Assembly: GCF_030718205.1 (NCBI RefSeq)
Contig: NZ_JAUZQF010000030.1
Location: 62,001-126,000, forward strand
Source of the DNA: Nonomuraea turcica
Lineage (GTDB): Bacteria > Actinomycetota > Actinomycetes > Streptosporangiales > Streptosporangiaceae
Reading direction: 5' to 3'
DNA length: 64,000 nucleotides
The translations under genes and the position numbers were made by a program. The notes below the pieces were generated by a model. It saw nothing but the letters and a program-made list of their open reading frames with translations. It made no database searches and was not told the origin of the DNA. Below, in pieces: positions 12 through 17,025 of this stretch (its first letter is position 1; the number at the start of each line of letters is the position of its first letter).

Positions 12-824
12 GTGACAACACGACTACAGGGCCGCCGGGCTCTCCTGACCGGCGGCGCCTCCGGCATCGGCGCCGCGACCGCGGAACTGTTCGCCGCCGA
101 GGGCGCCGCGGTGGTCATCGCCGACCTGCCCTCGCACCGCGCCGCGGCCGACGCCGTAGTCGCGCGTATCGAGAAGGACGGCGGCCGTGCGGTCTTCGCG
201 CCCACCGACGTCACTGACCCGGCCGCGGTGGACGCCGCGGTGGCGCTGTGCGTCGACCGGTTCGGCGGCATCGATGCAGTGGTCGCCTCGGCGGGCGTGA
301 GCGCCCATCCGGACCGCACCGGATCGTTCAACTCGTTGCTCGACCTCGATCCGGCACATTTCCGTTTCGTGCTCGACGTCAACGTGACCGGTGTCTTCCT
401 CACCGCCAGCGCCGCGGCGTCCGCGATGCCGGAGTCGGGCGGCTCGATCGTGGTGCTGGCCAGCATTGCCGCCAAGCGGCCGTCCGCAGGCGCGTACTCG
501 GTGTCCAAGGCCGGCGCGTGGATGCTTACGCGCTGCCTCGCGCACGAATTGGCGCCACGCCATATCCGGGTCAACGCGATCGGGCCGGGTTACGTGGAGA
601 CGGGCCTGCTCGACGGCATGGCCCGGCGATCGGGCGGCGACGACCTCGATGCCCAGAGGATGTGGCGGGAAACGCGCGAGAAGCAGGTGCCGTTGCAGCG
701 GCTCGGGCTGCCGGCGGAGATCGCCCGCACCGCACTTTTCCTCACCAGCGACGAGGGTTCGTACTTCACCGGTTCGCTGTTGCATCCCGACGGCGGATTC
801 GCGTCCGAGTACGCCGGCGGCTGA
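12..824 (+). CDS. SDR family NAD(P)-dependent oxidoreductase
   Basis: A classical short-chain dehydrogenase of 270 residues. It has the N-terminal Rossmann motif TGGASGIG, a central ASAGVS stretch in place of NNAG, the catalytic YSVSK and the family's usual RVNAIGPGYVET. I chose the GTG at 12 because AAGGAG sits at bases 1-6; the ATG at 10 stops immediately. It is the first gene seen of a co-directional run (SDR, phosphotransferase pair, ALDH, HAD, regulator), so it probably oxidises an alcohol or reduces a ketone in that pathway. The substrate cannot be read from the sequence. The operon may begin outside the window. Confidence 0.9.
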   Translation: MTTRLQGRRALLTGGASGIGAATAELFAAEGAAVVIADLPSHRAAADAVVARIEKDGGRAVFAPTDVTDPAAVDAAVALCVDRFGGIDAVVASAGVSAHPDRTGSFNSLLDLDPAHFRFVLDVNVTGVFLTASAAASAMPESGGSIVVLASIAAKRPSAGAYSVSKAGAWMLTRCLAHELAPRHIRVNAIGPGYVETGLLDGMARRSGGDDLDAQRMWRETREKQVPLQRLGLPAEIARTALFLTSDEGSYFTGSLLHPDGGFASEYAGG

Positions 825-853: not shown

Positions 854-2593
854 ATGAGCACCGTGGTTCCGGTTGACGAGTTCATCTCCGACGAGTGGTA
901 TCCGGGCTTCAGGCCCGGGCGCACCGACGCCGGGGTCTACACCGAGGCGCTGTCCACCTTCCGGAAGGAGGACGAGGACCGCTTCTGGTTGCTGGACTTC
1001 CACTATCCGCGCGGCATGGTGCCGCTCGGGTACGTCTTTCCCGAGGATGGCATCTGCTTCTGCACCCAGCAGGCGGCCGAGGGTCTGCCGCTGCCCACGA
1101 GCGGCGGGCTCGGTGTCCGGATGGCCGGACCGCACATCTACACCAGCGAGGTGCCGGTCACCTCGCGGTGGGCTGTCGGCGAGCGGGTCGAGCGCATCCA
1201 GCGCGCCCTCCCGGCGACCCTCGAGCGGTTCCAGGCGACGTGGGCCGACCGAGTGACGGAGCTGAACCGCGGACTGGCCTACTTCGAAGGGCAGTCCTTC
1301 GACGGTCGCGACCTCGCCGACCTGGCCCGCCTCTACGAGGAGGCGGTCGTCTTCCACCGCCGCGCCTGGACGATCCACTTTGAGATCATGTACCCGCTGC
1401 TGGCCACCTATGTGGGCTTCCACGGCACGTGCCTGGAACTGGGCATCGACGCGGCCGAGATCTCGAAGTTCCTGCAAGGCTACGACTCCAAGATCATGGA
1501 GACGGATCGCGGCTTGTGGGAGCTCACCCGCAAGGCACGCGCGGCCGGGCTCGCCGACGTTTTCGCCGCCACCGACGCGACAGACCTCAATACGACGCTC
1601 CGGGCCGACCCGGCGGCGAAAGGCTGGGTCGCCGACTTCGACGCGTTCCTGCAGACGTACGGGCACCGCACCGAGGGCATCGCGGACGTCGTGCTGACGC
1701 CCTGGATCGACGACCCGGTCAGCCCGCTGGGCACGGTCCGGACGTACCTGTCGAAGGGCTCCGATCACGACTTCGCCGGCGCGCGGGCCGCCGCCGTGGC
1801 CGAACGGGAACAGGCGATCGACGCCGCCCGCGGCCGGCTCACGGTCGAGGAGCGGCACGTCTTCAATGCCGGGCTGGCCGCGTGCACGTCGGCCAACTTC
1901 GCGTGGTGGAACGAGGACCATAACTACTACATCGACCTGCGCGCACACATCCCGATGCGGCGGGCCGGCCTGGCGATCGCCCGCGCGCTGGGCGCCGAGC
2001 GGCCCGATGACGGACTGTTCGTGTTCCGTCCCGAGCTGCGTCGACTCGCCGAAGGGCACCGCGACTGGGGCAGCATGCGCAAGTTGGTCGACGAACGGCG
2101 GGCCTACTACGAGCATTGGCTCGCCCGCCGGCCGAGAATGCCGAAGGTGCTCGGCACCGTACCCGAGGACATGAGTGACCCGGTGATGCGGGAGATCTTC
2201 GGGACCAATGCCGGGTTCTTCGCGGCCATGAAACAGCTCGGCGGTGACACGTCGCAGGTCACCTCGCTGTCCGGCGTCGCGGCGTCGTCGGGCGTGGCCC
2301 GCGGCGTCGCGCGGGTGCTGCACGGTGCCGAGGAACTGCACCGGATCGAACCCGGCGAGATCCTGGTGTGCGAGGCGACCTCACCCAACTGGACGCCGGC
2401 CTTCGCGAAGATCGCCGCCTGCGTCTGCGACAGCGGTGGCACGCTGACGCACGCGTCGATCGTCAGCCGCGAGTACCGCATCCCCTGCGTGTGCGGGGTG
2501 GGCATCGCGACGTCGACGATCCGCACCGGCGACGAGATCGAGGTGGACGGCACCCGAGGTACCGTGCGCATCCGGAAGCGGGCCGAGCGATGA
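854..2593 (+). CDS. PEP-utilising (swivelling His domain) phosphotransferase subunit
   Basis: 579 residues. The last ~90 residues form a PEP-utiliser mobile domain with the phosphorylatable histidine at about residue 533 in GGTLTHASIVSRE, followed by a GDEIEVDGTRG end. The first ~480 residues are helical with a YGHRTEG motif, as in the substrate-binding part of rifampin-phosphotransferase and PEP-synthase-like proteins. There is no ATP-grasp domain and no PEP/pyruvate TIM barrel; the ATP-grasp domain is the next gene. This split is known for phenylphosphate synthase and the hydroxyphenylethanone kinase pair. I infer that it phosphorylates a hydroxyl group of a small substrate. The reading frame is open upstream from 248, but that part overlaps the SDR gene, so the ATG at 854 is preferred. 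Confidence 0.8.
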   Translation: MSTVVPVDEFISDEWYPGFRPGRTDAGVYTEALSTFRKEDEDRFWLLDFHYPRGMVPLGYVFPEDGICFCTQQAAEGLPLPTSGGLGVRMAGPHIYTSEVPVTSRWAVGERVERIQRALPATLERFQATWADRVTELNRGLAYFEGQSFDGRDLADLARLYEEAVVFHRRAWTIHFEIMYPLLATYVGFHGTCLELGIDAAEISKFLQGYDSKIMETDRGLWELTRKARAAGLADVFAATDATDLNTTLRADPAAKGWVADFDAFLQTYGHRTEGIADVVLTPWIDDPVSPLGTVRTYLSKGSDHDFAGARAAAVAEREQAIDAARGRLTVEERHVFNAGLAACTSANFAWWNEDHNYYIDLRAHIPMRRAGLAIARALGAERPDDGLFVFRPELRRLAEGHRDWGSMRKLVDERRAYYEHWLARRPRMPKVLGTVPEDMSDPVMREIFGTNAGFFAAMKQLGGDTSQVTSLSGVAASSGVARGVARVLHGAEELHRIEPGEILVCEATSPNWTPAFAKIAACVCDSGGTLTHASIVSREYRIPCVCGVGIATSTIRTGDEIEVDGTRGTVRIRKRAER

Positions 2594-3639
2594 CCTACAT
2601 CCGCCACCTCCCGGACATCGCGACCGATGATCCGGCGGCCGGAGGCAAGATGACCCGGCTGGCTGATCTGGCCCGGGCCGGTCTCACCGTGCCGCACGCG
2701 TTCGTCGTTACCACCGACGCGTTTCAAGCGGTGGCGGCGGCGTGCGATCTGCCCTCCGCGCTCGATCGGGAACTGGCCGGTCTTGGTGCCGACGACTCGG
2801 CCGGACTGGCCCGTGCCGAGCAGCGACTACGGGAACGCCTGGCCGGCGCACCGCTGCCGCCGGATCTCACCGAAGCCGTTGCCGGCGCCTACGAGCAACT
2901 GTGCGCGGCGTCGCGGGATGCGCTACTGCCGGTTGCGGTGCGCAGTTCGGCGACGACCGAGGACGCCGTCGCGTCGAGCAGCGCCGGACAGTACGACACC
3001 TACCTCGGTCTGACCGGCGCGCCAGCCGTCCTCGACGGCATACTGCGGTGCTGGGGCAGCCTGTTCGGAGCCCGAGCGCTCAGCTACCGGATCCGCAACG
3101 GTCTATCCCATGTGGAATCGACGATGGCCGTCGGCATCGTGGAGTTGGTGCACGCCCGGGCGAGCGGTGTGGCGTTCTCCCTCAACCCGGTCACCGGACG
3201 GCGGGACCGTATTGTCGTGGAGGCGACGTTCGGCTTCGGCGAGGCGCTGGTGCAAGGCGTGGTCACCCCGGATCACCTGGAGGTTGGCCGCGCCGACCGG
3301 CGGATACTCAGCTACGCGGTGGGCGACAAGCAGACCGTGTCCGCGATGGACCATCGGGCCGGCCAGGTCGTCGAGGTCGCCATGCCGGAGCCGATGCGAA
3401 CCCTCCGCGTGCTCGCCGAAGACGAGATCGGCGCCCTCGTCGATGCCGTGCTCGCCGCCGAGGAGATGCTCGGCGCACCGGCCGACGTGGAGTGGGTCAT
3501 CCCCCGCGCCTACCGGTCAGGTGACCCGGTGACACTCGTGCAGGTCCGGCCCGTCACCACCGCCGTGGCGCAGCCCGCGCAGACCTGGAACGCCGCCGCC
3601 ATGGCGCTCAAATACGCGTTCAAGGGAATACCGCAATGA
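2590..3639 (+). CDS. PEP/pyruvate-binding (ATP-grasp) subunit of a split dikinase-type phosphotransferase
   Basis: 349 residues matching the PPDK N-terminal ATP-binding domain alone. It shows the AVRSSATTEDA nucleotide-binding motif with the SSAGQYDTYL loop, GVAFSLNPVTG, the ATFGFGEALVQG strand and the terminal VQVRPVTT. It starts with ATGA overlapping the stop of the swivel subunit, so the two are translationally coupled and should form one enzyme: ATP phosphorylates the swivel histidine here, and the phosphate passes to the acceptor bound by the partner. Normal PEP synthases carry both domains plus a PEP domain in ~800 residues; this pair lacks the last. Confidence 0.82.
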   Translation: MTYIRHLPDIATDDPAAGGKMTRLADLARAGLTVPHAFVVTTDAFQAVAAACDLPSALDRELAGLGADDSAGLARAEQRLRERLAGAPLPPDLTEAVAGAYEQLCAASRDALLPVAVRSSATTEDAVASSSAGQYDTYLGLTGAPAVLDGILRCWGSLFGARALSYRIRNGLSHVESTMAVGIVELVHARASGVAFSLNPVTGRRDRIVVEATFGFGEALVQGVVTPDHLEVGRADRRILSYAVGDKQTVSAMDHRAGQVVEVAMPEPMRTLRVLAEDEIGALVDAVLAAEEMLGAPADVEWVIPRAYRSGDPVTLVQVRPVTTAVAQPAQTWNAAAMALKYAFKGIPQ

Positions 3640-5075
3640 CCGCCACGACGTATGTCGACGGCCGCTGGTGGGACCGTCCCGAACGCCGGATCGTGCCCGA
3701 CCCCGCCGACAACCGTGAAGTGGTCGCCGAGGTCTCGTTGTCCTCCGCTGCGGATGTCGACGCGGCCTACGCGGCCGCCGACCGGGCCGCGCGGGCCTGG
3801 GCGCGCACTGCCCCCCAACGCCGGCACGACGTACTCCTGGCCGCCGCCGCGGTCCTCGACCGGGACCGGGAGGCGATGGCGCGCGACCTCGTCCGTGAGG
3901 AGGGAAAGATCTGGAAGGACGCCAGCGGCGAGGTGGCCCGCTCGGCGGACACGCTGCGATATTTCGCCATGGCGGCGCTGCAGCCGGCCGGCGACGTACT
4001 GCCGGCGCCCGCCGGATCGTTCATTCTGAGCCGCCGCGTGCCGCTGGGTGTGGTGACCGTCATTACCCCGTTCAACTACCCGATGCTGCTGCCGGCCTGG
4101 AAGATCGGGCCGGCGCTCGCGCACGGCAACACCGTGGTGTGGAAGTGCAGTGAACTGGTGCCGCTGTCCGCCGTCCACTTCACCCGGGCGCTCGCCGAGG
4201 CGGGTCTGCCGGACGGCGTGCTGAACCTGCTGTGCGGCACCGCCGCAACGCTGGCCGGTCCGCTACTGGCGGATTCCCGCACCAGAGCGGTCACCTTCAC
4301 CGGGTCCACCGCAGCGGGCCGGGCGGTGCAACGAGCTGTCACCGGGCGCGACGTCGCCGTGCAGTTGGAGATGGGCGGGAGCAACGTCGCCGTCGTCCTC
4401 GCCGATGCCGACCTCGACGCGGTCACCGCACACCTCGCCGCCGGGGCGTTCTCCGGCAGCGGGCAGAAGTGCACCGCGATCGGCCGGATCGTCGCCGAGG
4501 CGCCGGTGGCTGACGAACTTGCTGAGCGGTTGGCCGCCGCGGCGGCCGACTTGACGATGGGCAGCGGACTCGAGCCGGCCACGAAGCTCGGCCCGCTCAT
4601 GACACCGGCGGCCCGCGACGCGGTGATCCGCGCGACGCGGGAAGGGGTGTCAGCCGGCGGCACGGTGCTGCACGGCGGTGACCCGCCGGCCGAGGAACGA
4701 CTCGCGTACGGCAACTTCCTTCCGGCCACGGTGCTCGCCGGAGTGCAACCGGGCACCGCCACGGCCCGGCACGAGGTCTTCGGACCGTTTGCCGCCGTCA
4801 TATCGGTTCCGGACGCCGGGCGCGCGATGGAGGTCGCCAACGACACCCCGTACGGGCTGAACGCCGGCGTCTTCACCCGCGACCTGGCGCTGGCGCTGCG
4901 CTTGGTGCAGAGCCTCGACGCCGGGATGGTTCATCTCAACGCGGTCACCGGCTTTCCGCCGTACGTCCCGTTCGGCGGGATGAAGGACTCCGGCTCCGGC
5001 CCTTTGGAGCAAGGGCCGCGCACCTATGAGTTCTTCACCCGCGGTCAGGTCGTCCACCTTCACCCGGAGGCGTGA
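3636..5075 (+). CDS. Aldehyde dehydrogenase family protein
   Basis: A full-length NAD(P)-dependent aldehyde dehydrogenase of 479 residues. The general-base Glu is at about 245 (LEMGGSN) and the catalytic Cys at about 279 (GQKCTAIGR). The ITPFNYPM and FTGSTAAGR cofactor motifs and the C-terminal PFGGMKDSG are present. The start overlaps the kinase subunit stop (ATGA), and the stop abuts the GTG of the HAD gene, so it is inside one operon. It resembles benzaldehyde/vanillin- or semialdehyde-type enzymes; which aldehyde is used is not visible. In the pathway it would turn an aldehyde into the acid, perhaps while the ring or chain hydroxyl is phosphorylated. Confidence 0.9.
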   Translation: MTATTYVDGRWWDRPERRIVPDPADNREVVAEVSLSSAADVDAAYAAADRAARAWARTAPQRRHDVLLAAAAVLDRDREAMARDLVREEGKIWKDASGEVARSADTLRYFAMAALQPAGDVLPAPAGSFILSRRVPLGVVTVITPFNYPMLLPAWKIGPALAHGNTVVWKCSELVPLSAVHFTRALAEAGLPDGVLNLLCGTAATLAGPLLADSRTRAVTFTGSTAAGRAVQRAVTGRDVAVQLEMGGSNVAVVLADADLDAVTAHLAAGAFSGSGQKCTAIGRIVAEAPVADELAERLAAAAADLTMGSGLEPATKLGPLMTPAARDAVIRATREGVSAGGTVLHGGDPPAEERLAYGNFLPATVLAGVQPGTATARHEVFGPFAAVISVPDAGRAMEVANDTPYGLNAGVFTRDLALALRLVQSLDAGMVHLNAVTGFPPYVPFGGMKDSGSGPLEQGPRTYEFFTRGQVVHLHPEA

Positions 5076-5870
5076 GTGCACCCCGATCTGGCGTCCTACG
5101 ACACGGTGGTGAGCGACCTCGATGGGACGCTGTGGATAGACGACACCCCCCTGCCCGGCGCCGTCGGCCTGCTGGACTCGTTTCGTCGCCGGGGAGCCAG
5201 GATCTGCCTGGCCACCAACGCCAGCGTCGCCACGTCGGCGCAACTCCGCGCCGGACTCACCCGGGCCGGCCTGGCAGCTCCGGGTGACGTGCTGGTCACG
5301 GCCGCGGACGCGCTCGGGGCGCAGGCCCGCGAACTAGGCATTCACGAGGTGGCAGCGATCGGTGAGGCAGGCCTGTTCGACGCGTTGGCCCGGCACGGGG
5401 TGCGCGCCGTGCCGGGCGACGAGGTCTGGCGGTCGTGGTCATCCACACCGTCGGGCCGCGCCGTCGCCATGGGTCTGGCCCCGGACACCGATATCAGGAC
5501 GCTCGGACGTGTTGCCATGCTGCTGGAGCGTGGCCTGCCCTTGCTGGTCACCACCACCGAGGTGGCATATCCGACGCGGGAAGGGTTGTCCGGCGGCACC
5601 GGCATGGCGCTGGCCGCACTCGCCGCCCGGGTCGCCGTCGATCCGATCATCTGTGGTAAACCGTCGTCGCCGTTCTTGACCGCGCTCCGGCCGCACGTGG
5701 CGGGCAGGGTGCTGATGATCGGTGACACCGTCGCAGCCGACGTCGAGTTGGCCGCCGCCGCAGGCTGGGACAGTCTGCTCGTGCTCACCGGAACCAGCGC
5801 CGACCAGCACACCGACTGGCCCCGGGCAACATTCGTGACGCCGGATCTCCTGACGATCGGCGCGCGATGA
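5076..5870 (+). CDS. HAD-superfamily (NagD-like) phosphatase
   Basis: 264 residues with the four HAD motifs: DLDGTL (nucleophile Asp14, acid Asp16), LATNAS, GKP with the lysine, and MIGDTVAADVELAAAAG. The order and spacing fit C2-capped NagD/p-nitrophenyl-phosphatase-like enzymes. The GTG start directly follows the ALDH stop, and the end overlaps the regulator start (ATGA). Its place beside an ATP-dependent phosphotransferase is telling: it probably removes the phosphate that the kinase pair adds. A general phosphate-ester scavenging role is the alternative. Confidence 0.83.
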   Translation: MHPDLASYDTVVSDLDGTLWIDDTPLPGAVGLLDSFRRRGARICLATNASVATSAQLRAGLTRAGLAAPGDVLVTAADALGAQARELGIHEVAAIGEAGLFDALARHGVRAVPGDEVWRSWSSTPSGRAVAMGLAPDTDIRTLGRVAMLLERGLPLLVTTTEVAYPTREGLSGGTGMALAALAARVAVDPIICGKPSSPFLTALRPHVAGRVLMIGDTVAADVELAAAAGWDSLLVLTGTSADQHTDWPRATFVTPDLLTIGAR

Positions 5871-6520
5871 CCACCGCACGGACGAGGCCCGGCGAAGGAA
5901 TACAGGCGCTGCCCACCGCTCCCCCGCCGACCGGTGCCGAGTTCGACGACGCCGCCATCCTGGGCCGCCGGATCCGGCAACTGCGCAAGAACGCCGGGCT
6001 GACACTGGACCGCGTCGCCGACGCCGCGCAGATCTCGGCCAGCCTGCTCTCCCGGATCGAGCGGGGCGCCGCACAGCCGTCACTACCGACGCTGCGCACC
6101 ATCTCCCAGGCGCTCGGCATTCCCATCGCGGCGCTGTTCGAGGGCGAGGACCGATCAACCGCGAGCGAGCATGACGCGGCTGGGCGGCGACTCGTCGTGC
6201 GGCACGCCGACCGGCGCCGGCTCAAGGTGCCGGATTCCCGCATCCAGTACGAACTCATGATCCCCGACCTGGACGGCGCGGTCGAGGTGATCTGGGGAGC
6301 GATACCACCGGGTGGTGGGACGACACATCCCTCCTCCCACCCGGGCGAGGAGGTCATCGTCGCGCTCGCCGGGCACGTCGCGGTCGTGGTCGACGACCAG
6401 GAGTTCCTCCTGGCAGTAGGGGACACCATCCGCTTCGACCGCAGCCGTCCGCACCGCCTCTTCAACCCCCGCCCGACGGTCGCGGAGTTTGTCCTGGTCG
6501 TCACGCCACCGTCGCGCTGA
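5867..6520 (+). CDS. XRE-family regulator with C-terminal cupin sensor
   Basis: 217 residues. An XRE helix-turn-helix lies at about residues 30-85 (IRQLRKNAGLTLDRVADAA, SASLLSRIERG), and a small cupin barrel occupies the last ~70 residues (HPGEEVIVALAG, GDTIRFDRSRPHR). This architecture is common in regulators of catabolic genes, where the cupin binds the inducer. It is the last gene of the overlapping operon and probably controls it. It is a close paralogue of the regulator at 10629-11240; the linker and cupin are nearly identical even at DNA level. Confidence 0.88.
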   Translation: MTTARTRPGEGIQALPTAPPPTGAEFDDAAILGRRIRQLRKNAGLTLDRVADAAQISASLLSRIERGAAQPSLPTLRTISQALGIPIAALFEGEDRSTASEHDAAGRRLVVRHADRRRLKVPDSRIQYELMIPDLDGAVEVIWGAIPPGGGTTHPSSHPGEEVIVALAGHVAVVVDDQEFLLAVGDTIRFDRSRPHRLFNPRPTVAEFVLVVTPPSR

Positions 6521-6602: not shown

Positions 6603-8078
6603 ATGTTGACATCGCGCAAGACGCGGTCCGGGCAGAAGGCCCGCCGGGCCGTCCTACTGTTGCTCCCGGCGGCTCTCGCCGGGGCACTGGTCTCGGCATC
6701 TCCGCTGACCGCGAACGCGGCCGCTGTCGTCGCGGTGCCTGCCGCGACACTGACGAAGGTCAACGTTCCCGGCACATCACCGATGTCGGCCACCGCCGTC
6801 GACCTGAAGGCTGCCGGCTACACCGCCAAGGAGTTCTACGCGGAAGGCCTCGCCCACCGGTACACCGGAGCGAACGCCAACACCTTCACGACCGCCACCG
6901 TTCTCGACGGCGGCAATCCGTATCGCACGCGGGTGATGGTGCGATACCCCAAGCCGCACAAGTTCAACGGGACGCTGGCCGTCGAGTGGACCAACGTCAC
7001 AACCGGGGTCGACTTCGAGTTCGCCACGGCCGAGGCCTCGGAATACCTCCTGCGTGAGGGCTATGCGGTCGCCATCGTTTCGGCACAGCGTGTCGGTGTC
7101 GAGCGGCTCAAGACATGGAGCCCGCAGCGATACCCCGGGCTCTCGGTGGACGTGAACAAATGCCTTCCCGACGGCACGTCCCTCTGCACCGGGGACCCGA
7201 TCTCCTACGACATCTTCGCGCAGATCACCCGGGCACTCATGAACAACGCCGGGGGCGCGACCGCGCCGATGCCAGGCCTGCACGTGCAGGACGCGATCGC
7301 CATCGGCCAGTCCCAGTCGGCCGCTCGGCTGGCCATCTACTACAACACGATCCAGCCGCTCCACAACGTCTTCGACGGCTTCGCGTTCTGGGACCGGTCG
7401 GGCCAGCTCCGAGATGACCTGACCGTTCCGGCGATCAGTGTCGACTCCGAAGGGCTGGGGGGCTCGTTCGGGGGCGCTGGATGGACGACGTCGACGTACA
7501 CCCGCAAGTGGGACGTCGCAGGCGCGACGCACGCTTCGCTGTACGGCGCCCAGTACATCGAGGCGATCGCGCAGCGCGATCAATCGATTTTGCTGCCCGA
7601 CGGACAGCCGAAAACGTTCTTTGAGTGGATCGACTTCAACCACGTCTGTGTCAAGCTTCCGCCCTTCACCACGGTGGACGTCGGCCTGGTCTACAACAAG
7701 GCAATCGATTCTGTCCGCAACTGGTTCAAGAGAGGGACGCCCGCCGCCCCTTCGCGAAGCTTCGTGATATCCCCATCCCCGCCGGGTCTTCCTGTTCGTG
7801 ATGCAGACGGCAAGGTGGAGGGCGGGATCCGTCTCCCGCAGTTCGTTGTGCCGACCGCGGAGCAGGGTGCGCTCAACGGGACCGCCTTCCCCTGCAACGT
7901 GTCAGGCTGGCACCGCTACTACACCAAGGACGAGCTCAAGGCGATGTACGGCACTCACGGCCGCTACGTCGCGAAGGTGCAAAGGGTCATGTATCCGCTG
8001 GTCGCAGAAGGCTATGTGTTGAGGACCGACGCGTTGGCTGCCGTTCGCGACGCCGCGCTGTCCGACGTCGCGAAGTAG
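6603..8078 (+). CDS. Secreted alpha/beta-hydrolase domain protein
   Basis: 491 residues. A Sec-type signal peptide (basic RKTRSGQKARR, then a leucine/alanine core ending near ANAAA) precedes a long hydrolase of the 'alpha/beta hydrolase domain-containing' type. The likely nucleophile is Ser237 in IGQSQSAARL. A strong AGGAGG just upstream fixes the ATG at 6603; the open frame back to 6489 overlaps the regulator. An 82-bp gap separates it from the regulator, so it may have its own promoter. It probably cleaves an ester or amide outside the cell and so could release the substrate of the preceding pathway; that link is inference. Confidence 0.75.
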   Translation: MLTSRKTRSGQKARRAVLLLLPAALAGALVSASPLTANAAAVVAVPAATLTKVNVPGTSPMSATAVDLKAAGYTAKEFYAEGLAHRYTGANANTFTTATVLDGGNPYRTRVMVRYPKPHKFNGTLAVEWTNVTTGVDFEFATAEASEYLLREGYAVAIVSAQRVGVERLKTWSPQRYPGLSVDVNKCLPDGTSLCTGDPISYDIFAQITRALMNNAGGATAPMPGLHVQDAIAIGQSQSAARLAIYYNTIQPLHNVFDGFAFWDRSGQLRDDLTVPAISVDSEGLGGSFGGAGWTTSTYTRKWDVAGATHASLYGAQYIEAIAQRDQSILLPDGQPKTFFEWIDFNHVCVKLPPFTTVDVGLVYNKAIDSVRNWFKRGTPAAPSRSFVISPSPPGLPVRDADGKVEGGIRLPQFVVPTAEQGALNGTAFPCNVSGWHRYYTKDELKAMYGTHGRYVAKVQRVMYPLVAEGYVLRTDALAAVRDAALSDVAK

Positions 8079-8175: not shown

Positions 8176-9590
8176 TCACCCGTCGGCGGCGAGCCCCTTC
8201 CGGCCGGTCGACAGTCGCACGGGCAGGATCACTGCCGACGGGTGCTCCGGGTCGTGGTAGACCTCCTGGTGGGCGGTGAGCAGCGTGGCCGCGGTCGCCC
8301 GTGGCCGTCCGGTGCCGGGGTTGCGGGCGAACCGGGGAAAGGCGCCGCTGGAGACCTGTATCCGAATGCGATGACCCCGCTTGAACAGGTACGCGGTCGG
8401 CCACAGCCGCACCTGAGCGGCGCGGATCTGGTCGGCGCTCGTCAGGCTCAGCAGGCCGTCGCAGATGTTGTACGAGCGGCCGCGCGGGTCCACGTCGCAG
8501 AGGCGGACGAAGACGTCCGCGTAGGGCCGGCTCGAGCGGAAGTAGATCTCGGCGCTGACCTCGCCGATCACCTCGAGGTCGTGCTCCAGGGCGGAGGTGG
8601 TGTAGGTGAGCACGTCCAGGCGGGTCTCCAGGGCGGTGTTGTCGACGCGGCCCGTCGTGCCGGTCATCCGGACCCCGCCGACAGCGGGGGTGGGGTCGAC
8701 CGGGTCGTACTGGTACCGGTCGGGCCCGGACACGCCGGGTGGTTGCTCCCCCTTGGCGTGGGCAAGCCCGAAGTCGGTGGCCTCGCGAACCGCTGTCCCG
8801 ATCACGTCTGGAGCGGTGTGGGTCCACTGACCGACGGTCAGGCGTGCGTCGCGCCCCGGTGACTGTGGTCGATGCCGGCCCACCGGTCGGCGTCTCGGTC
8901 GTGGGCGAGAATGTCCTGGATGTACTCGGATCGGTGACCGAGAGCGGCGATGTCCGAGCCGGTGAGCGGAATGGTGCGCAACGCCCGCTGCAGTCGCCTG
9001 GCACCCAGGCGGTGACGCAACATCGCCCAGCGCCGCTCCTGAGTGGCGACCAGGACGCCCCAGTCGAAAGGCGTCTCGAGGGAGATCCCGTCGGCGCGCA
9101 GGAATTCCATGGTCAGGGCAGACTCACTCACCTGCGGAATCATCGCCTTGACCGAGGGTGGCAGCCGGTCCGTCATCGCCCATTGCGCGTAGCCGAGGTA
9201 GCTCAGCCCGAACAGCACCATCGTGTCGGCGAACCACGGCTGGTTCCCCACCCATTCCAGCGTGGCCAATCCGTCCTCACGCTCGCAGCGCAGCGGGTCG
9301 AGGGTGCCACCGGAGCCGAACGTGCCGCGGGTGCTCTGGATCAGGACCTGGAAGCCCCGCTCGGCCAGCGGCCGGGTCAGGACCGTGCCCAAGGTGCCGC
9401 GCCGGCCGTACGGGGTGCGGATGACGACCGTCGGCAGGGCGTCGCCTCCGGCTCGAGGCGCCCAGCGGTCGGCGAGGAGATCGACACCGTCGGGCATCGG
9501 CACTCGAAGGTCGCGGTCGACGATCAACTGTCGGGTGGACGGTGTGGCCAAACGCAACATGCGTTGGATGAGATGGCTGGTCAGGTTCAT
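8176..9590 (-). pseudogene. CocE/NonD family hydrolase, broken by an out-of-frame internal deletion
   Basis: Two minus-strand frames together give a CocE/X-Pro dipeptidyl-peptidase-like protein. The N-terminal half (9590 down to about 8840) has the serine motif GLSYLGYAQW and ends at WAGIDHSHR. The C-terminal half (about 8860 down to 8176) begins near RLTVGQWTH with the jelly-roll domain. In intact relatives about 30-40 residues, including the GWYDIF catalytic-Asp segment, lie between these two points. Here they are missing and the frame changes, with a stop shortly after the join. The protein must be inactive unless the halves are made separately, and even then the Asp is absent. Confidence 0.8.
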
Positions 9591-9708: not shown

Positions 9709-10524
9709 ATGACGCTGAACATCCCGGCGGGTGCAGGCGCCGATCAATCGCCCGGGAGTGATCGGTGTGACCCTCGCCGGCACCGGCACGCTCGTTCAGG
9801 AGGACGAACGGCTGTCGTGCGCGCCGGCGACTTCGCGATGTACGACAGCACCCGCCCGTGCGTTCTGCAGGTCGAGGGCGACCTCGAGATGCTCACCCTG
9901 CACATTCCGCACATGACGATGTTGGCAGTACTGCCCGGGGCTTCTGCCTCCACCGCCACCGCGATCAACGGACGGGATGGCAGCGCCGCCCTGATCTATC
10001 CGCTGCTCAAGAACCTCTCGGCCACGGCGGACACCGCCTCACCAGTGGTCCAGCGGCATTACGCGACCGCCGCTGTTGAGCTCATCGCGGCGTCGCTCGC
10101 GGAGATCGCCTCGCTGCCCACAGGCGCTCCGCTGCGCGCGGCTACCCTCGCGCGGGCACAACAGTACATCGAACAAAATCTGTGGGATCCCGATTTGTCC
10201 CCGGCGGCTGTCGCCCGCGCCGTCTTCGTCTCGCCGCGCCACCTGCAAGCCCTCTTTCACGAGCAGCAGACATCCGTTGCCCGATACGTGATGAAGCGGC
10301 GTCTCGACCGCGCTCACCACGACCTCGCCGACCCTCGCCTGGCACACCTGTCGGTCGCTGACATCGCCACACAGCTCGGATTCCGGCGTCCATCTCATTT
10401 CGCCTACGTGTTCAGGACGCGGTTCGGCCTCAGCCCGCGCGAACATCGATACAGCGGCCGGGAGAAACCCAGGCGCCTGACTCCGGTCGGCGACACCGCC
10501 GAACGAGACATCCCGACAACGTGA
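9709..10524 (+). pseudogene. AraC-family regulator with a truncated, frameshifted sensor domain
   Basis: The C-terminal two thirds are a good AraC protein: a partial AraC-binding-like domain (RAGDFAMYDSTRPC) and a double HTH (LSPAAVARAVFVSPRHLQALF; VADIATQLGFRRPSHFAYVFR). The N-terminus does not fit. The expected sensor sequence (VIGVTLAGTGTLVQEDER) lies in another frame from about 9740 to 9805 and joins the downstream frame by a one-base shift. About 60-70 residues before it are missing. A strong ribosome site (CCAGGAGGG) precedes the ATG at 9709, so a 271-residue product may still be made, with a scrambled first ~35 residues. Confidence 0.7.
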
Positions 10525-10628
10525 CCATGGCAGGGCGTGGTAGCTCTTCGTCGCCGTATCGAGGCCCAAGTGGCAGGTAGGGTCCTAGTGTTCGGCGGCG
10601 ACGCGCTGCCGGGAAAGGAGTGGGCTGG

Positions 10629-11240
10629 ATGACCAGCGCCGCCACGTCGGCAGATCCGGACGCCGCCGACGCCGCCGCCCTTGGCGGTCGGATCCGGGAA
10701 TTGCGCAAGAGGGCGGGACTGACCCTGGACAGCGTCGCCGACGCCGCGCAGATCTCGGCCAGCCTGCTCTCCCGGGTTGAGCGCGGTGTCGCGCAGCCGT
10801 CGCTGCCCACGCTGCGCACCATCGCCCGTGCCCTCGGTGTGCCGATCGCGGCGCTGTTCGAGGGCGAGGACCGGTCAACCGCGAGCGAGCATGACGCGGC
10901 CGGGCGGCGGCTCGTCGTGCGGCACGCCGACCGGCGCCGGCTCAAGGTGCCCGACTCGCGTATCCAGTACGAACTCATGATTCCCGACCTGGACGGCGCG
11001 GTCGAGGTGATTTGGGGGTCGATACCACCGGGCGGCGGGGCCACCCTTCCCTCCTCGCACCCCGGCGAGGAGGTCGTCGTCGCGTTCACCGGGCACGTCG
11101 CCGTCGTGGTCGACGACGAGGAGTTCCTGTTGGCGGCGGGCGACACGATCCGTTTCGACCGGAGTCGCCCGCATCGTCTGCACAACCCCCGGGCGACAGT
11201 CGCGGAGTTCATGCTCATTGTGGCGCCACCATCACGTTAG
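10629..11240 (+). CDS. XRE-family regulator with C-terminal cupin sensor (paralogue)
   Basis: 203 residues with the same plan as the regulator at 5867: XRE HTH (IRELRKRAGLTLDSVADAA, SASLLSRVERG) and a cupin end (HPGEEVVVAFTGH, GDTIRFDRSRPHR). From the HTH to the cupin the two are almost identical, including long stretches of identical DNA. AAAGGAG at 10614-10620 places the ATG at 10629 as start, rather than the GTG inside that motif. It leads a block of aromatic-type catabolic genes and probably controls them, possibly with the same inducer as its paralogue. Confidence 0.88.
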   Translation: MTSAATSADPDAADAAALGGRIRELRKRAGLTLDSVADAAQISASLLSRVERGVAQPSLPTLRTIARALGVPIAALFEGEDRSTASEHDAAGRRLVVRHADRRRLKVPDSRIQYELMIPDLDGAVEVIWGSIPPGGGATLPSSHPGEEVVVAFTGHVAVVVDDEEFLLAAGDTIRFDRSRPHRLHNPRATVAEFMLIVAPPSR

Positions 11241-11389
11241 ATTGCGTCCGAGCAGGTACTGAAGCGTCATGCAATGCTCCCTTGCATGTCATGCATGTCG
11301 GCCCTAGCCTGTGACCATGCGGCTTCCGGCCCTCATGTGTGGTCGAGGGCTCCGCGTCAACGTCGCGAGCTAGCAAAGGAGCTGGCAGC

Positions 11390-11923
11390 ATGCCTGAAAC
11401 GCCCAATTCGGAGTTTTGGAAAACCCTCAAGCCGATCGAGAATTCGCAGAAGCCGGATGCGCTGCCGGAGGTCTACCTCTCCAAGGTCGCCACCGATGAC
11501 GACCGCTACTACGTGCCTTTCACCGAGACCGTCGGGTCCCGGCCGCTGTGGATCAACGTCAAGGACAACAGCTGGGCTGACATCCTGCGCGCGAAGGAGG
11601 CTGGGCTGGTCAACCGGCATTACCACCCGCATGAGGTGTTCGCCTACACCATCTCCGGCAAGTGGGGCTACCTGGAGCGGCCCTGGACGGCGAGCGCCGG
11701 CGACTTCGTCTACGAAGCCCCGGGCGAGGGTCACACGCTGGTTGCCTACGACAGCGGCGAGCCGATGAAAACCTTCTTCATCGTCAAGGGTCCGCTCGCC
11801 TGGCTGGACGAGAACGGCGACGTCACCGGGATCTTCGACGTCCACGACTACATCGCGATGTGCCGGGAGCACTACGACAAGGTGGGCATCGGCGCCGACT
11901 ACGTCAACTCGCTCTTCCGCTGA
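11390..11923 (+). CDS. 2,4'-dihydroxyacetophenone-dioxygenase-like cupin
   Basis: 177-residue single-cupin protein. The metal ligands are visible as His77 and His79 in NRHYHPHEVF and His115 in PGEGHTL. This pattern and the GKWGYLE and AMCREHYDKVGIGADYV segments are those of the 2,4'-dihydroxyacetophenone dioxygenase family, Fe enzymes that cleave an aliphatic C-C bond next to a carbonyl on an aromatic side chain. The real substrate may be a related alpha-hydroxyketone or diketone. AAAGGAG lies before the ATG. The next gene follows after 13 bp, so it is in an operon with a dehydrogenase that could make the ketone. Confidence 0.75.
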   Translation: MPETPNSEFWKTLKPIENSQKPDALPEVYLSKVATDDDRYYVPFTETVGSRPLWINVKDNSWADILRAKEAGLVNRHYHPHEVFAYTISGKWGYLERPWTASAGDFVYEAPGEGHTLVAYDSGEPMKTFFIVKGPLAWLDENGDVTGIFDVHDYIAMCREHYDKVGIGADYVNSLFR

Positions 11924-11936
11924 TGGGAAAGGCCGC

Positions 11937-13019
11937 GTGACGAGGGCCGCCGTCTGGTACGGAGCGCGCGATGTCCGCGTCGTCGATGTGGAGTCCCGGG
12001 CCACCGGCCCCGGGGAGGTCGCGATCGCGGTGGCATACTGCGGCATCTGCGGTAGCGACCTGCATGAGTACGCTGACGGACCGCATGCCATCCCGGTGCA
12101 CGAACCGCATCCCGAGTCGCGGACGACCGCGCCGATCATCGTCGGCCACGAATTTTGCGGCACGGTGGTCGAAGTCGGGTCCGGCGTGTCCGGGTTCGCG
12201 CCGGGCGACCGGGTCGCGGTGGAGCCACACTACCGCTGCGGCGCGTGTCCCCGATGCCGGAACGGTGAGTACAACATCTGCCGGCACTTCGGCTTCGCCG
12301 GTCTCATGGGCGACGGCGGGATGGCCGAACGGGCCGTCGTTCCCGCCTACATGCTGCACCGCCTACCCGACACGGTCTCACTGGAGCAGGCGGCAGTGTT
12401 CGAGCCGGCTGCCGTGGCCCTGCACGCCTGGCGGCGGGCGGGCTTCCGCCCGGGCGAGACACTCGCCGTGATCGGCCTCGGCCCGATCGGGCTTCTCATC
12501 GTGATGCTGGCCGTGCGGCACGGCGCGGGCCGCATCATCGCGGCCGACCTCTCCCCGGCCCGGCTCGAGGTCGCCCACGCCCTGGGTGCAACGGACCTCG
12601 TGCCCGCCGAAGATCGGGCTGCCGTGGCTGACCTGATCAGGCAGGCCGCCGACGCTGAAGGCGTGGACGTGGCTTTCGAAGTCGTCGGCTCCGAGGAGAC
12701 GCTGCGCACCTGCATGCACGCGACGCGGAGCGGCGGCCGGGTCATGCTGGTCGGCCTGGCCGGGACGGTCAGCATCGATGCGTTCGCGATGGTCAACAAG
12801 GAGCAGTCGATCATCACCAGCGTGGGTTATCGCGACGTCTACCCCGACCTGATCCGGTTGGTGGAGAAGGGGATGGACCTCACCGCGATCGTCACCGCCA
12901 TCATCGCCTTGGAGGACGTCGTGCACGACGGGTTCGAAGCCCTGCTGCGCGGCAGCGACCAGATCAAGATCCTTGTTCGACCAAGTGGAGGAAGGCAAGC
13001 ACATGACCACGGCGGATAG
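11937..13019 (+). CDS. Zinc-dependent alcohol dehydrogenase (2,3-butanediol dehydrogenase-like)
   Basis: 360 residues, MDR superfamily. It has a catalytic-zinc site (CGICGSDLHEY, GHEF), the structural-zinc loop CGACPRCRNGEYNIC and a Rossmann motif VIGLGPIGLL. The DGPHAIPVHEPHP segment is typical of 2,3-butanediol/sorbitol dehydrogenases, which oxidise vicinal diols or acyloins. The GTG at 11937 is preceded by GGGAAAGG. The 3' end overlaps the next SDR gene by 17 bp. With the upstream cupin it could supply an alpha-hydroxyketone or diketone for C-C cleavage; this is inference from context. Confidence 0.87.
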   Translation: MTRAAVWYGARDVRVVDVESRATGPGEVAIAVAYCGICGSDLHEYADGPHAIPVHEPHPESRTTAPIIVGHEFCGTVVEVGSGVSGFAPGDRVAVEPHYRCGACPRCRNGEYNICRHFGFAGLMGDGGMAERAVVPAYMLHRLPDTVSLEQAAVFEPAAVALHAWRRAGFRPGETLAVIGLGPIGLLIVMLAVRHGAGRIIAADLSPARLEVAHALGATDLVPAEDRAAVADLIRQAADAEGVDVAFEVVGSEETLRTCMHATRSGGRVMLVGLAGTVSIDAFAMVNKEQSIITSVGYRDVYPDLIRLVEKGMDLTAIVTAIIALEDVVHDGFEALLRGSDQIKILVRPSGGRQAHDHGG

Positions 13020-13749
13020 GGCAGGGTTCAACAGCGACCAGTTCGCCGGGCACCCGGTGTTCGTCACCGGCGGCACGTCGGGGATCGGCGCCGCGACGGC
13101 GATGCTGTTCGCCGAACTCGGCGCCGACGTCACGGCTCTCGGCCTCGCCCCCCGGGTCGCCGGCGAGCGACCGGTGCATCCGCGGGTACGGGTGATCAAG
13201 CACGACGTCCGCGACCACGACGGCCTGGCGCGGCTGATCTCGGCCGAACCGCAGATCGGTGTCCTGGTCAACTGCGCGGGCGTCAGCCACGACCGCAGGG
13301 AGTACGACCTGGACCCCTGGCGCGTGGTGCTGGACGTCAACCTCACCGCCACCATGGTCGCCAGCGAAGCGGCGCGCCCGGGTCTCGCGAGGGCCGGCGG
13401 CTGCGTCGTCAACGTGTCCTCGATGTTCGCCTTCTTCGGCAGCAGGGATCGGCCGGCGTACAGCGCGAGCAAGGGGGGCGTCTCGCAACTGACCCGGTCC
13501 CTCGCCGCGGAGTACGCCCCGGAAGGCATCCGGGTGAATGCCGTTGCGCCGGGGTTCGTGGAGACACAGCTGGCCCGCGGCTTGCTCGACGATCCGCAGG
13601 CCGCCGCGGAACTGCTGCTGCGCATCCCGCTGGGACGGTACGGAAAGCCCCGGGATGTCGCTCAGGTGATCGCGTTTCTGTGCTCGCCTGCCGCGTCGTA
13701 CATCTGCGGGGCGGTCTTGCCCGTGGATGGGGGCTATCTCTGCGTTTGA
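13003..13749 (+). CDS. SDR family oxidoreductase
   Basis: 248-residue classical SDR: TGGTSGIGAATA cofactor loop, NCAGVSHD, NVSSMFAFF with the catalytic serine, YSASKGG catalytic Tyr/Lys, and the terminal LPVDGGY. The ATG at 13003 has GGAGGAAGG eight bases upstream; the frame is also open from 12973. It overlaps the ADH gene by 17 bp and belongs to the same transcript. It is distinct from the SDR at 12-824. Confidence 0.9.
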   Translation: MTTADRAGFNSDQFAGHPVFVTGGTSGIGAATAMLFAELGADVTALGLAPRVAGERPVHPRVRVIKHDVRDHDGLARLISAEPQIGVLVNCAGVSHDRREYDLDPWRVVLDVNLTATMVASEAARPGLARAGGCVVNVSSMFAFFGSRDRPAYSASKGGVSQLTRSLAAEYAPEGIRVNAVAPGFVETQLARGLLDDPQAAAELLLRIPLGRYGKPRDVAQVIAFLCSPAASYICGAVLPVDGGYLCV

Positions 13750-14410: not shown

Positions 14411-15373
14411 ATGGCGCAGAAGCCCTTCGCCTCGTCCGCCGATCTCGCCGACAAACAGCAGACCCTCGAGGTGTTGGCCGACGGGGTCTATGCGCTGACG
14501 GCGGAGGGCGATCCGAACGTCGGGGCGATCGAAGGCGAGGATTTTCTGGTCTGCTTCGAGGCGCTCGCCACTCCGGTGGCCGCCCGGGAATGGCTCGCCT
14601 TGCTCCGTCAGCACACTGACAAACCGGTCAAGTTTCTCGTGTTGTCGCACTACCATGCGGTGCGGGTGCTCGGTGCCAGCGCCTTCGACGCCGAGGTGAT
14701 CGTGGCGCACGAGCGGACACGCGAGTTGATCGCCGAACGCGGCAAGCAGGACTGGGAGTCGGAATACGGCCGGATGCCCCGACTGTTCAAGGAGCCCGCC
14801 TCGATTCCGGGATTGACTTGGCCCACTGCCACGTTCGCGGATCGGTTCACCATCGATCTCGGCGGCGATCGGGGTGATCTGGTGCTGCAGTACTGCGGGC
14901 GCGGGCACACCGAGGGCGACATCGTGGCGTGGCTGCCCCGACAGCGGATCCTCTTCGCCGGTGACCTGGTGGAGGCGCACGCGGCGTTGTACACCGGCGA
15001 CGCGTTCCACCGGGACTGGTCGACCGGGACGCTGGACGCGGTCGCCGCCTTCGGCGCCGAGACACTCGTCGGCGGGCGCGGCGCGGTGGCGTCCGGGCGA
15101 GACGCGGTGGACGCGGCGATCGGGCAGACCCGGCACTTCCTGCAGGTGATGCTGCGTGAAGTCGGCGCCGTGCGGCAGCGAGGTGGCACGGTGAAGGAGG
15201 CGTTCGAGGCGACTCACGCCGCCCTCGTCGATCAGTACGGCGGCTGGCCCATCTTCGAACACTGCCTGCCGTTCGACGTGTCCCGGCTCTGGGACGAGAT
15301 GTCCGGCATCGAACGGCCGCGCATCTGGACCGGGGAACGCGACCGCGCCGTGTGGCAGGAATTGCAGGACTGA
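14411..15373 (+). CDS. MBL-fold metallo-hydrolase
   Basis: 320 residues of metallo-beta-lactamase fold: LSHYHAVRVLGA (first His pair), CGRGHTEGDIVAW (later ligand His), LFAGDLVE (bridging Asp). The usual HxHxDH is HYHAVR here, so the Asp-His pair that binds the second metal is absent; I believe this variant is typical of a subfamily rather than a mutation. Its stop overlaps the ATG of the flavin hydroxylase by one base (TGATG), so the two act together, probably on an ester or lactone made or used by the hydroxylase. Confidence 0.82.
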   Translation: MAQKPFASSADLADKQQTLEVLADGVYALTAEGDPNVGAIEGEDFLVCFEALATPVAAREWLALLRQHTDKPVKFLVLSHYHAVRVLGASAFDAEVIVAHERTRELIAERGKQDWESEYGRMPRLFKEPASIPGLTWPTATFADRFTIDLGGDRGDLVLQYCGRGHTEGDIVAWLPRQRILFAGDLVEAHAALYTGDAFHRDWSTGTLDAVAAFGAETLVGGRGAVASGRDAVDAAIGQTRHFLQVMLREVGAVRQRGGTVKEAFEATHAALVDQYGGWPIFEHCLPFDVSRLWDEMSGIERPRIWTGERDRAVWQELQD

Positions 15374-17025
15374 TGAACGGCCACACGCCTGACGCCCGCG
15401 ACGGACGCGGCCCGTCGCCGGTGGTGGTACTCGGCAACGGGCCGGTGGGCCAGACTGCCGCGCTGCTGCTGGCGCGGTGGGCTGTCCCGGTTATCCTGCT
15501 CGATCAGCGGCCGCACCGCGACCCGGTCGGTTCCAAGGCGATCGTGCAGCAGCGCGACGTCCTCGACGTGTGGGACGCCGTTGGCGCCGGCCGCCGCATC
15601 GCCGACGAGGGGCTCACCTGGACCGTGGCGCGCACCTTCTACCGCGACCAGGAACTGTTCAACTACACCTTCGCTGACCCGGGCCGATCTGTGTTTCCGC
15701 CGTTTGTGAACATCTCACAGACGCGTACCGAGGAAGTCCTTGACCAGCGGATCGCGGCCGAACCGCTCATCGACGTGCGCTGGGACCACCACGTGACCGG
15801 CATCGCCCAAGACGAGCAGGGCGTCACGCTGCACTGTGGGAACCGTGCGGTGCAGGCGTCTTACGTGGTCGCATGCGCCGGAGCCCGCGGCGACGACATA
15901 CGGCGCATGCTCGGCGTCAGGTTCGACGGGCGCTCCTTCGACGACCGGTTCCTGATCTGCGACATCCGCACCGACCTGCCCGGCTGGGCCAACGAGCGCC
16001 GGTTCTATTTCGACCCGCCGTGGAACCCCGGACGGCAGGTCCTCATCCACCCCTGTCCGGACAGTACGTTCCGCATCGACTGGCAGGTCCCGGCCGGCGA
16101 GGACCGTGCCGTCGGCGTGGACCCAGGCGGCCGGGACGCGCGGATCCGAGCCATCATCGGTGATCGGCCCTACGAGCTGGTGTGGAGCTCGGTGTACCGC
16201 TTCCACTCCAGGGTCGTGGACCGGATGCGGGTCGGGCGGGTGCTGCTCGCCGGCGATCTGGCCCACCTGGTCTCCCCGTTCGGCGCCCGCGGACTCAACT
16301 CCGGCGTACAGGACGCGGAGAACGCCGCCTGGAAGCTGGCGTTCGTCCTCAACGGCTGGGCCGACGAGTCGCTGCTCGACAGCTACCACGCCGAACGGCA
16401 CGCCGCCGCCCGCGAGAACCTGGACGTCACCGACGCCACCATGCGCTTCCTCGTACCCGGCACCGAGGCCGAGCACCAGCACCGCCTGGCCGTCCTGGAG
16501 GCGGCCGGCACCGACGCGGGCGCCCGCGCTGCCGTCGACTCCGGCCGGCTCGCGGAACCCTTCTGGTACGTCGACTCGCCGCTGACCACGCCGAATCCGA
16601 ACCATCCGTTCACCGGACGCCCACCGCGCGGCGCCGTGCCGCCGGCCGGCCCTGGCATCCTCGTGCCCGACGCGCCGATCGCGATCGGCGGGCGTCCCAC
16701 CCGGATACGGCAGATCGCCCGCGACGGATTCCTGCTGCTGGCCGGCGAGCGGGTGGACGCCGACGCCGTCCACGCCGCCGCGCAGCGCGCAACCTCGGCA
16801 CCGGTGCGGGTCGAGCGCATCACCGACATCGACCACGACAGCGCGCTCGCCACCGTCCTGGCGGCCCATCCCGAGGAGCTGTGGATCATCCGGCCGGACG
16901 CACATGTCGCCGCGGTACTCACTGATCCGGGCCCGGCCGCTGCCGGCACGGCGCTGCGGCGTGCGACCGCCGCTCCCACCACGACAGAGGAGCGTGACCA
17001 TGGCGTACTACCGGCTGATCGGTGA
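15373..17025 (+). CDS. FAD-dependent aromatic hydroxylase (class A flavoprotein monooxygenase)
   Basis: 550 residues. FAD-binding GNGPVGQTAALLLARW is at the N-terminus, and the second FAD motif LLAGDLAHLVSPFGARGLNSG is near residue 300. A thioredoxin-like C-terminal domain follows, as in PheA/TfdB-like phenol and 3-(3-hydroxyphenyl)propionate hydroxylases. It uses NAD(P)H and O2 to hydroxylate a phenolic ring. It sits between an MBL hydrolase and remnants of homogentisate genes, so its product may once have been homogentisate-like. The 3' end overlaps the first remnant by 26 bp. Confidence 0.88.
   Translation: MNGHTPDARDGRGPSPVVVLGNGPVGQTAALLLARWAVPVILLDQRPHRDPVGSKAIVQQRDVLDVWDAVGAGRRIADEGLTWTVARTFYRDQELFNYTFADPGRSVFPPFVNISQTRTEEVLDQRIAAEPLIDVRWDHHVTGIAQDEQGVTLHCGNRAVQASYVVACAGARGDDIRRMLGVRFDGRSFDDRFLICDIRTDLPGWANERRFYFDPPWNPGRQVLIHPCPDSTFRIDWQVPAGEDRAVGVDPGGRDARIRAIIGDRPYELVWSSVYRFHSRVVDRMRVGRVLLAGDLAHLVSPFGARGLNSGVQDAENAAWKLAFVLNGWADESLLDSYHAERHAAARENLDVTDATMRFLVPGTEAEHQHRLAVLEAAGTDAGARAAVDSGRLAEPFWYVDSPLTTPNPNHPFTGRPPRGAVPPAGPGILVPDAPIAIGGRPTRIRQIARDGFLLLAGERVDADAVHAAAQRATSAPVRVERITDIDHDSALATVLAAHPEELWIIRPDAHVAAVLTDPGPAAAGTALRRATAAPTTTEERDHGVLPADR

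Follow-up and report, generated by a model that had tools for sequence, protein, structure and literature searches.

A split dikinase operon that shares a candidate operator with a dioxygenase gene set in Nonomuraea turcica, and its possible role in phenol catabolism

The stretch of DNA analyzed here, referred to as the window, comprises 64,000 nucleotides of the Nonomuraea turcica genome (contig NZ_JAUZQF010000030.1, positions 62,001 to 126,000), and it opens within an operon centered on two kinase genes, which we designate DikH and DikI. Computation gave us the architecture and family of this kinase, the conservation of its operon, its association with phosphatases, and an operator site shared with a second gene set that begins with a 2,4'-dihydroxyacetophenone dioxygenase (DAD). 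Pfam and NCBIfam searches with the window proteins confirmed the open reading frame coordinates of the short-chain dehydrogenase/reductase (SDR), DikH, DikI, the aldehyde dehydrogenase (ALDH), the HAD phosphatase, and the regulator, all on the forward strand (Table 1), with the SDR in front of DikH, where an earlier reading made from the letters alone (the sequence-only reading) had placed it. That reading also had these genes overlapping, which is right for the DikH/DikI, DikI/ALDH, and HAD/regulator junctions (4 bp each) and wrong for ALDH and HAD, which only abut (stop at 5075, start at 5076, zero overlap). The 5' end of the operon lies outside the window: in the genome contig, LivK, LivH, a fused LivM-LivG, and LivF, identified with Pfam, precede the SDR, and the transcription unit is most likely LivK-LivH-LivMG-LivF-SDR-DikH-DikI-ALDH-HAD-XRE/cupin, ten genes with a HAAT-type ABC importer first. 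There are no biotin carboxylase subunits among the operon genes, and no cytochrome P450 (P450), ferredoxin, or ferredoxin reductase.

Table 1. Features of the dikinase operon and of the DAD gene set (window coordinates; LivF is given in locus L008)
Feature	Coordinates	Strand	Basis or remark
LivF, ABC ATPase upstream of SDR	L008:17272-18015		Overlaps SDR start by 4 bp
SDR dehydrogenase	12..824	+	Pfam adh_short_C2 6e-59; start overlaps LivF stop by 4 bp; 83% identity to L082 copy
DikH, helical substrate-binding domain and C-terminal swivel, catalytic His533	854..2593	+	579 aa
DikI, ATP-grasp subunit	2590..3639	+	PPDK_N 2e-85; 349 aa
ALDH	3636..5075	+	Aldedh 2e-139
HAD-IIA (NagD/p-nitrophenylphosphatase-type) phosphatase	5076..5870	+	Pfam Hydrolase_6 and Hydrolase_like; same family as HpeD
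XRE-cupin regulator, copy 1	5867..6520	+	HTH_31 and Cupin_2
Abhydrolase_10 protein adjoining operon	6603..8078	+	PF20091 5e-97 on L029 copy; 87% identity in L082
XRE-cupin regulator, copy 2	10620..11240	+	168/206 aligned residues identical to copy 1
31-bp candidate operator, TCATGMAA-N7-TTGCATGTCRTGMAKG	11267..11297	+	Precedes DAD gene 11390-11923
DAD	11390..11923	+	PDB 4p9g E=2.5e-89, residues 6-177 of 177
Zn alcohol dehydrogenase, 13 bp behind DAD	11937..13019	+	ADH_N and ADH_zinc_N
Second SDR, likely on DAD transcript	12973..13749	+	NCBIfam SDR models; start from gene caller

DikH and DikI have one Pfam match each: PEP-utilizers, the swivel domain with the His, at residues 498 to 569 of DikH, and PPDK_N, the ATP-grasp domain, in DikI. 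No C-terminal phosphoenolpyruvate (PEP)-binding barrel domain was matched by Pfam, and an AlphaFold2 model of all 579 DikH residues (pLDDT 92.2, pTM 0.91), made from an alignment of the window DikH with 45 of the 79 loci described below (46 sequences), consists entirely of the swivel domain and a largely helical part, with no barrel left over. The reading frames, Pfam, and the model all agree with the sequence-only reading, which had described a split kinase with swivel and helical domains on one gene, an ATP-grasp domain on the next, and no PEP barrel. The catalytic His533 follows GGxxx in a GGTLTH motif; it and Leu531 are invariant in the 46 sequences, and there is no regulatory Thr two residues before the His, the place being taken by Leu531. 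This supports the prediction of a split two-component dikinase with the architecture of phenylphosphate synthase and HpeHI.

DikH is 25 to 30% identical to the HpeH-, CreH-, and PpsA-type references, a group with about 45% mutual identity. In the tree, it falls outside the reference clade and far from the CreH clade, with support of 100 for the references and 99 for the separate window clade. It also stands apart from the full-length paralogs of its own genome; the sequence-only reading had stated in advance that it would be refuted by a grouping with full PEP synthases or antibiotic phosphotransferases that had lost a domain. The tree was computed without 28 loci thinned beforehand (27 from Pseudonocardia or Actinomycetospora and the short L107) and without L052 and L025 to L027 (L026 and L027 being contigs of L042 and L085), and its references come from 4 of 5 and 8 of 16 genomes from two reference searches. 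The Cre labels of L131, L134, and L136 come from similarity alone, and L131 lies outside the Cre group. The second dikinase copies of L045 and L046, labeled as window clade, fall on the Cre side of the tree; these two Pseudonocardia genomes thus have a window-type pair and, a few kb away, a second pair of the cre side.

Among the NCBIfam models, DikH comes closest to PRK08296, an unnamed subfamily, but stays far under its cutoff (219.5 against 578 bits). The DikH model aligns with rifampin phosphotransferase (RPH) over 478 residues, and RPHs are the sole structural matches that cover most of its length, as would be expected of a detoxifying or antibiotic phosphotransferase that had been split by chance. 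We consider such an origin highly improbable, given that the operon also encodes an importer, oxidizing enzymes, and a phosphatase of its own that would cancel any resistance, and given the distance of DikH from its full-length paralogs in the tree. RPH, moreover, is a single chain that includes the ATP-grasp domain, and it has another biological setting; HpeH is described as matching RPH likewise (PMC12167813). A truncated PEP synthase or RPH is ruled out by the tree, the fold, and the separate ATP-grasp gene in 75 of the 79 loci.

These loci came from a scan of an 84,980-species collection with two short peptide patterns, which gave 92 relatives, the best 80 of which were kept as 79 loci; a scan of viral contigs gave 4 pattern matches and no relative. 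Thirty-two of the 79 are from Pseudonocardia or Actinomycetospora and are not independent; mycobacteria and acidimicrobia are among the sources of the rest, as are other actinobacteria and some proteobacteria. Of the named records, Nonomuraea basaltis (L029) is the nearest, at 99% identity over DikH. Among 35 other genomes of the genus, only one matched at E <= 1e-40, with a different protein that is 33% identical, and class-wide 6 of 394 genomes matched at E <= 1e-60, with the window's own genome counted. The operon is an accessory trait.

All ten operon genes occur in the same order in a metagenome-assembled genome from another family, the Micromonosporaceae (L082), with identities of 86% for LivK, 74% for LivH, 73% for LivMG, 69% for LivF, 83% for the SDR, 84% for DikH, 69% for DikI, 72% for ALDH, 65% for HAD, and 74% for the regulator. 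At third codon positions, the Abhydrolase_10 gene is 86% and LivK 75% identical to L082, and so these two were probably exchanged more recently; the other genes compared reach 44 to 64%, so that the high amino acid identity of the SDR and DikH reflects conservation at the protein level. The Abhydrolase_10 protein, which adjoins the operon in L082 too, has a signal-like segment at its N terminus (by eye) and no PDB match at 0.01.

Neighboring genes were counted by blastp with one representative per family (1e-12, half coverage) within the fetched flanks, some of which end with a contig close to DikH. No Hpe-type carboxylase subunits were found in any of the 79 loci, which rules out an obligatory carboxylase partner and the constant presence of a biotin carboxylase that the sequence-only reading had named as refuting it. 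That reading was right that the operon lacks a carboxylase. HAD_2-type HAD phosphatases were found in 38 loci, inositol-monophosphatase-type enzymes in 6, and HAD-IIA enzymes in 4, and the oxygenases are LigX-type Rieske (36), VanA-type Rieske (14), P450 (13), and phenol hydroxylase (6), where all these counts miss distant members and the VanA and P450 entries, at 25 to 33% identity, may be other subfamilies; a Rieske, P450, or phenol hydroxylase-like gene flanks DikH in 46 loci. ALDH was matched in 23, SDR in 9, and LivK in 5. At least one phosphatase occurs in 46 of the 79 loci, in 43 of them no more than two genes away, and of the gene slots one to two genes from DikH/DikI, 44 of 322 hold a phosphatase, compared with 4 of the 819 slots that lie three to nine genes away (distances from 78 loci, the gene caller having found no DikH in L052). 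Because of this crowding, the phosphatase looks like a partner of the kinase, drawn from two unrelated superfamilies, and the pairing asserted by the sequence-only reading is borne out.

Downstream of the operon, a second copy of the regulator and a candidate operator precede the DAD gene set. The window protein matches the DAD of Alcaligenes sp. 4HAP (PDB 4P9G) over nearly its full length and keeps the catalytic residues: H77, H79, and H115 stand at the places of the iron ligands, and, counted along the sequence, Y94, W62, and D64 are present. For the 4p9g enzyme, PMC4219425 gives His76, His78, and His114 as iron ligands, Tyr93 as invariant, and, by modeling, Trp61 and Asp63 as the residues that interact with the phenolic hydroxyl; it describes DAD as cleaving 2,4'-dihydroxyacetophenone to 4-hydroxybenzoate and formate in the breakdown of 4-hydroxyacetophenone. 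In contrast to the Alcaligenes gene, the window DAD sits behind the operator of a dikinase operon.

The operator was found by comparing promoters. With up to 3 mismatches allowed, the pattern has exactly two sites in the 12.66-Mb genome, both free of mismatches, the other one ending 54 bp before the LivK ATG, and a control pattern has none. Since the pattern was drawn from the promoters that it then matches, two matches are expected, and the telling result is the absence of a third. The operator core occurs twice in L029 and twice in L082, there before LivK and before the Abhydrolase_10 gene, and no exact match to it was found in 104 of the 107 loci examined. The inverted arms CATGCAA-N7-TTGCATG stand before DAD and before the L082 LivK, and the LivK site of the window's genome has one mismatch in its left arm; such arms would suit a dimeric helix-turn-helix regulator. 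We infer both the binding of the XRE-cupin regulator to the 31-bp candidate operator and the direction of regulation. Under this shared control, the dikinase and DAD gene sets probably serve one substrate family, and mainly for that reason a C6-C2 phenol of the hydroxyacetophenone type is the favored substrate. The sequence-only reading had named hydroxyacetophenones among its candidates, and the co-regulated dioxygenase lends this suggestion indirect backing; 4-hydroxyacetophenone is described as a preferred substrate of HpeHI (PMC12167813).

We read the locus, at about even chances, as an operon for breaking down a phenolic compound taken in from outside, most likely one of the hydroxyacetophenone or C6-C2 type, with phosphorylation, oxidation, dephosphorylation, and co-regulation of DAD. 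The HAAT-type importer would take the compound in; DikI would bind ATP and phosphorylate the swivel His of DikH, which would pass the phosphate to a hydroxyl, most likely phenolic, of a substrate bound by the helical domain of DikH. With the tag in place, the side chain would then be oxidized by the SDR and ALDH, and the HAD phosphatase, of the NagD type, would take the tag off, the product entering 4-hydroxybenzoate or related metabolism. The XRE-cupin regulator would control the dikinase and DAD operons together, the latter cleaving a 4-hydroxyphenyl alpha-ketol into 4-hydroxybenzoate and formate. The substrate, the site of phosphorylation, and the order of the steps are those that we infer.

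Several observations weigh against this proposal. A phenolic substrate does not follow from orthology, since DikH is so distant from the references. The DikI sequence is nearer to two PEP synthases in the PDB (9dae, 3.4e-47; 8a8e, 1.5e-43) than to HpeI (9goj, 1.5e-41). According to PMC12167813, HpeH and its relatives keep a Thr or Ser eight residues before the catalytic His (T/SxxGGxxxH), and DikH has Cys525 there, nearly invariant in the 46 sequences. No specific NCBIfam family model was reached by ALDH, the SDR, or LivK, and LivK, like DAD, has no NCBIfam name at 1e-15; the best model for ALDH, ketoglutarate semialdehyde dehydrogenase, scores 400 of the required 770 bits, too few to assign a specificity. 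By the blastp criterion, 33 of the 79 loci have no phosphatase, and 13 have neither a phosphatase nor an oxygenase. Of the 79 loci, L029, nearly identical to the window, is the only one with DAD near DikH; none was found in the 18 kb of L082, which has the whole operon, so that the link to DAD amounts to a site and a duplicated regulator within a single lineage.

The nearest Acidimicrobiia loci (L038, L040, and L041) likewise weigh against it: the kinase is followed there by genes of the 2-oxoacid dehydrogenase E1/E2 type, and its substrate could be a different one. These genes would suit a dikinase that acts on an aliphatic or sugar-like alcohol, such as an acyloin or polyol, with no ring chemistry, as would the distance of DikH from known phenol kinases; HAD-IIA phosphatases and HAAT importers, besides, serve many non-aromatic substrates. 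We nevertheless judge an aliphatic substrate to be quite unlikely, since Rieske, P450, phenol hydroxylase, and extradiol-pathway genes accompany the clade in part of the loci and since the DAD that follows the same operator keeps the residues that would hold a phenolic hydroxyl.

Returning to the phenolic reading, the closest architectural parallel is the hydroxyphenylethanone pathway of Rhodococcus rhodochrous GD02 (hpeHICBADEF), whose HpeHI shows the same domain split and the same RPH-like substrate domain. The likeness extends to a NagD-type HAD phosphatase (HpeD is described as NagD-like in PMC9618137), the operon HAD being 33% identical over a 123-residue stretch to the HAD of an hpe-type locus, and to phenolic ketone chemistry, as the co-regulated DAD suggests. 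In contrast, DikH is only 27% and 30% identical to the HpeH proteins of two hpe-type loci, and the Nonomuraea operon is without the biotin carboxylase HpeCBA and without HpeEF but has the HAAT importer, the SDR, and ALDH. PpsAB, the phenylphosphate synthase of anaerobic phenol catabolism, has the two-component architecture in common with DikHI, whereas DikH is 25 to 27% identical to PpsA-type proteins, and the UbiD-like genes of pps-type loci (by eye) are not in the Nonomuraea operon.

Loci of the type of the 4-cresol (cre) operon of Corynebacterium glutamicum also combine a dikinase with an SDR, an ALDH, and a phosphatase of another family. The CreHI pathway (work by Du et al. 2016, to which PMC12167813 refers) reportedly runs from phosphorylation through P450 oxidation to dephosphorylation, with CreD as the phosphatase. 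PMC9549646 describes the alkylphenol oxidation system as CreH, CreI, the P450 CreJ, redox partners, and CreD. The Nonomuraea operon differs in lacking the P450, ferredoxin, and ferredoxin reductase, in having an importer, and in its phosphatase (HAD-IIA, against an HD domain in cre) and regulator (XRE-cupin, against IclR, the latter by eye). The cre-type loci L143, L145, and L146 contain a P450, the dikinase, an SDR, and an ALDH; a regulator, a ferredoxin, a reductase, and one more gene were recognized there by eye, and in L143 this last gene encodes an HD-domain protein (Pfam) in the place of the phosphatase. The temporary tag suggested by the sequence-only reading is thus not new as an idea, following the same logic as the CreHI system, whose loci pair the dikinase with an SDR, an ALDH, an HD protein, and a P450.

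This common core invites a cre-like route without the P450, in which an imported phenolic alcohol (hydroxybenzyl alcohol, tyrosol, or similar) would be phosphorylated and so trapped, the SDR and ALDH would make the acid, HAD would free the hydroxyaryl acid, and the DAD operon would merely share the regulator, both compounds arising together. The HpeHI authors, who state that the reason for phosphorylating phenols is unclear, themselves propose trapping (PMC12167813). With DikH far from the CreH clade, and with an exclusive two-site operator that suggests a closer tie to DAD chemistry, we think this route unlikely, if a serious contender.

The temporary phosphate tag is already known from other bacterial pathways, and we found no description of this kinase branch or of this gene combination in the open-license literature, to which our search was limited. 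That kinases occur apart from carboxylases had already been noticed: PMC13101465 mentions a single-component kinase, MarK, and reports clustering of kinase and carboxylase genes in only 52 of 836 cases. More broadly, and tentatively, at somewhat less than an even chance, we suggest that phosphate acts as a handle that is put on phenols and taken off again by a large uncharacterized dikinase clade and its partners in actinobacteria and some proteobacteria, where many loci have their own phosphatase (HAD in two subclasses, or the inositol-monophosphatase type) and differing oxidizing enzymes; the Nonomuraea form would be a carboxylase-free, purely oxidative route of the hydroxyacetophenone type, with a dedicated importer and a C-C-cleaving dioxygenase under the same operator. 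A phosphatase that, where present, is next to the kinase (43 of 46 within two genes) amid variable oxidizing enzymes gives a handle on what the phosphate is for, whether trapping, recognition, or activation, and the two-site operator makes the substrate question testable, in that an inducer of DAD should also induce the kinase operon. On the practical side, the clade may yield routes that use dehydrogenases and dioxygenases on phenolic ketones or alcohols, lignin-derived ones among them.

Some minor features of the loci deserve mention. In the cre-type locus L145, a P450 and an ATP-grasp domain (PPDK_N) are fused in one 801-aa protein (10008-12413), and in L127, L128, L129, and L132 the ATP-grasp match is preceded by extra same-frame sequence that is cut at the locus end. 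Phenol hydroxylase, extradiol dioxygenase, and meta-cleavage-type genes lie near the dikinase in L066, L079, L089, L095, and L100, and L055 has meta-cleavage-type genes with no phenol hydroxylase match. Genes resembling cobalamin-independent methionine synthase (PF01717) recur beside the dikinase clade, for example at L091:8628-9680 and L042:4937-6091 (9 and 6 of the 79 loci for two representatives, overlapping). A class III aminotransferase is near the dikinase in six of the 79 (L086, L087, L088, L090, L098, and L103), where the substrates are perhaps phenolic amines. HmgA, maleylacetoacetate isomerase, and fumarylacetoacetase genes are near DikH in L098, and the isomerase also in L102. In L082, the Abhydrolase_10 gene and the operon are flanked by fumarylacetoacetase-like pieces, of which one is duplicated (1494-2173 and 4175-4465, by eye), as though the block had been inserted there; these pieces look like a broken gene at the insertion site. 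For this reason, and since the genes do not recur, the homogentisate link is weak.

Elsewhere in the window, two adjacent frames on the reverse strand (8176-9590) correspond by eye to one 547-aa gene in L029 (17323-18966), of which the window copy appears interrupted. An FAD-dependent aromatic hydroxylase (15421-17025; PRK08132, 477 bits against a cutoff of 416), adjoined by a metallo-beta-lactamase-fold gene (14411-15373), possibly serves a later step of phenol breakdown.

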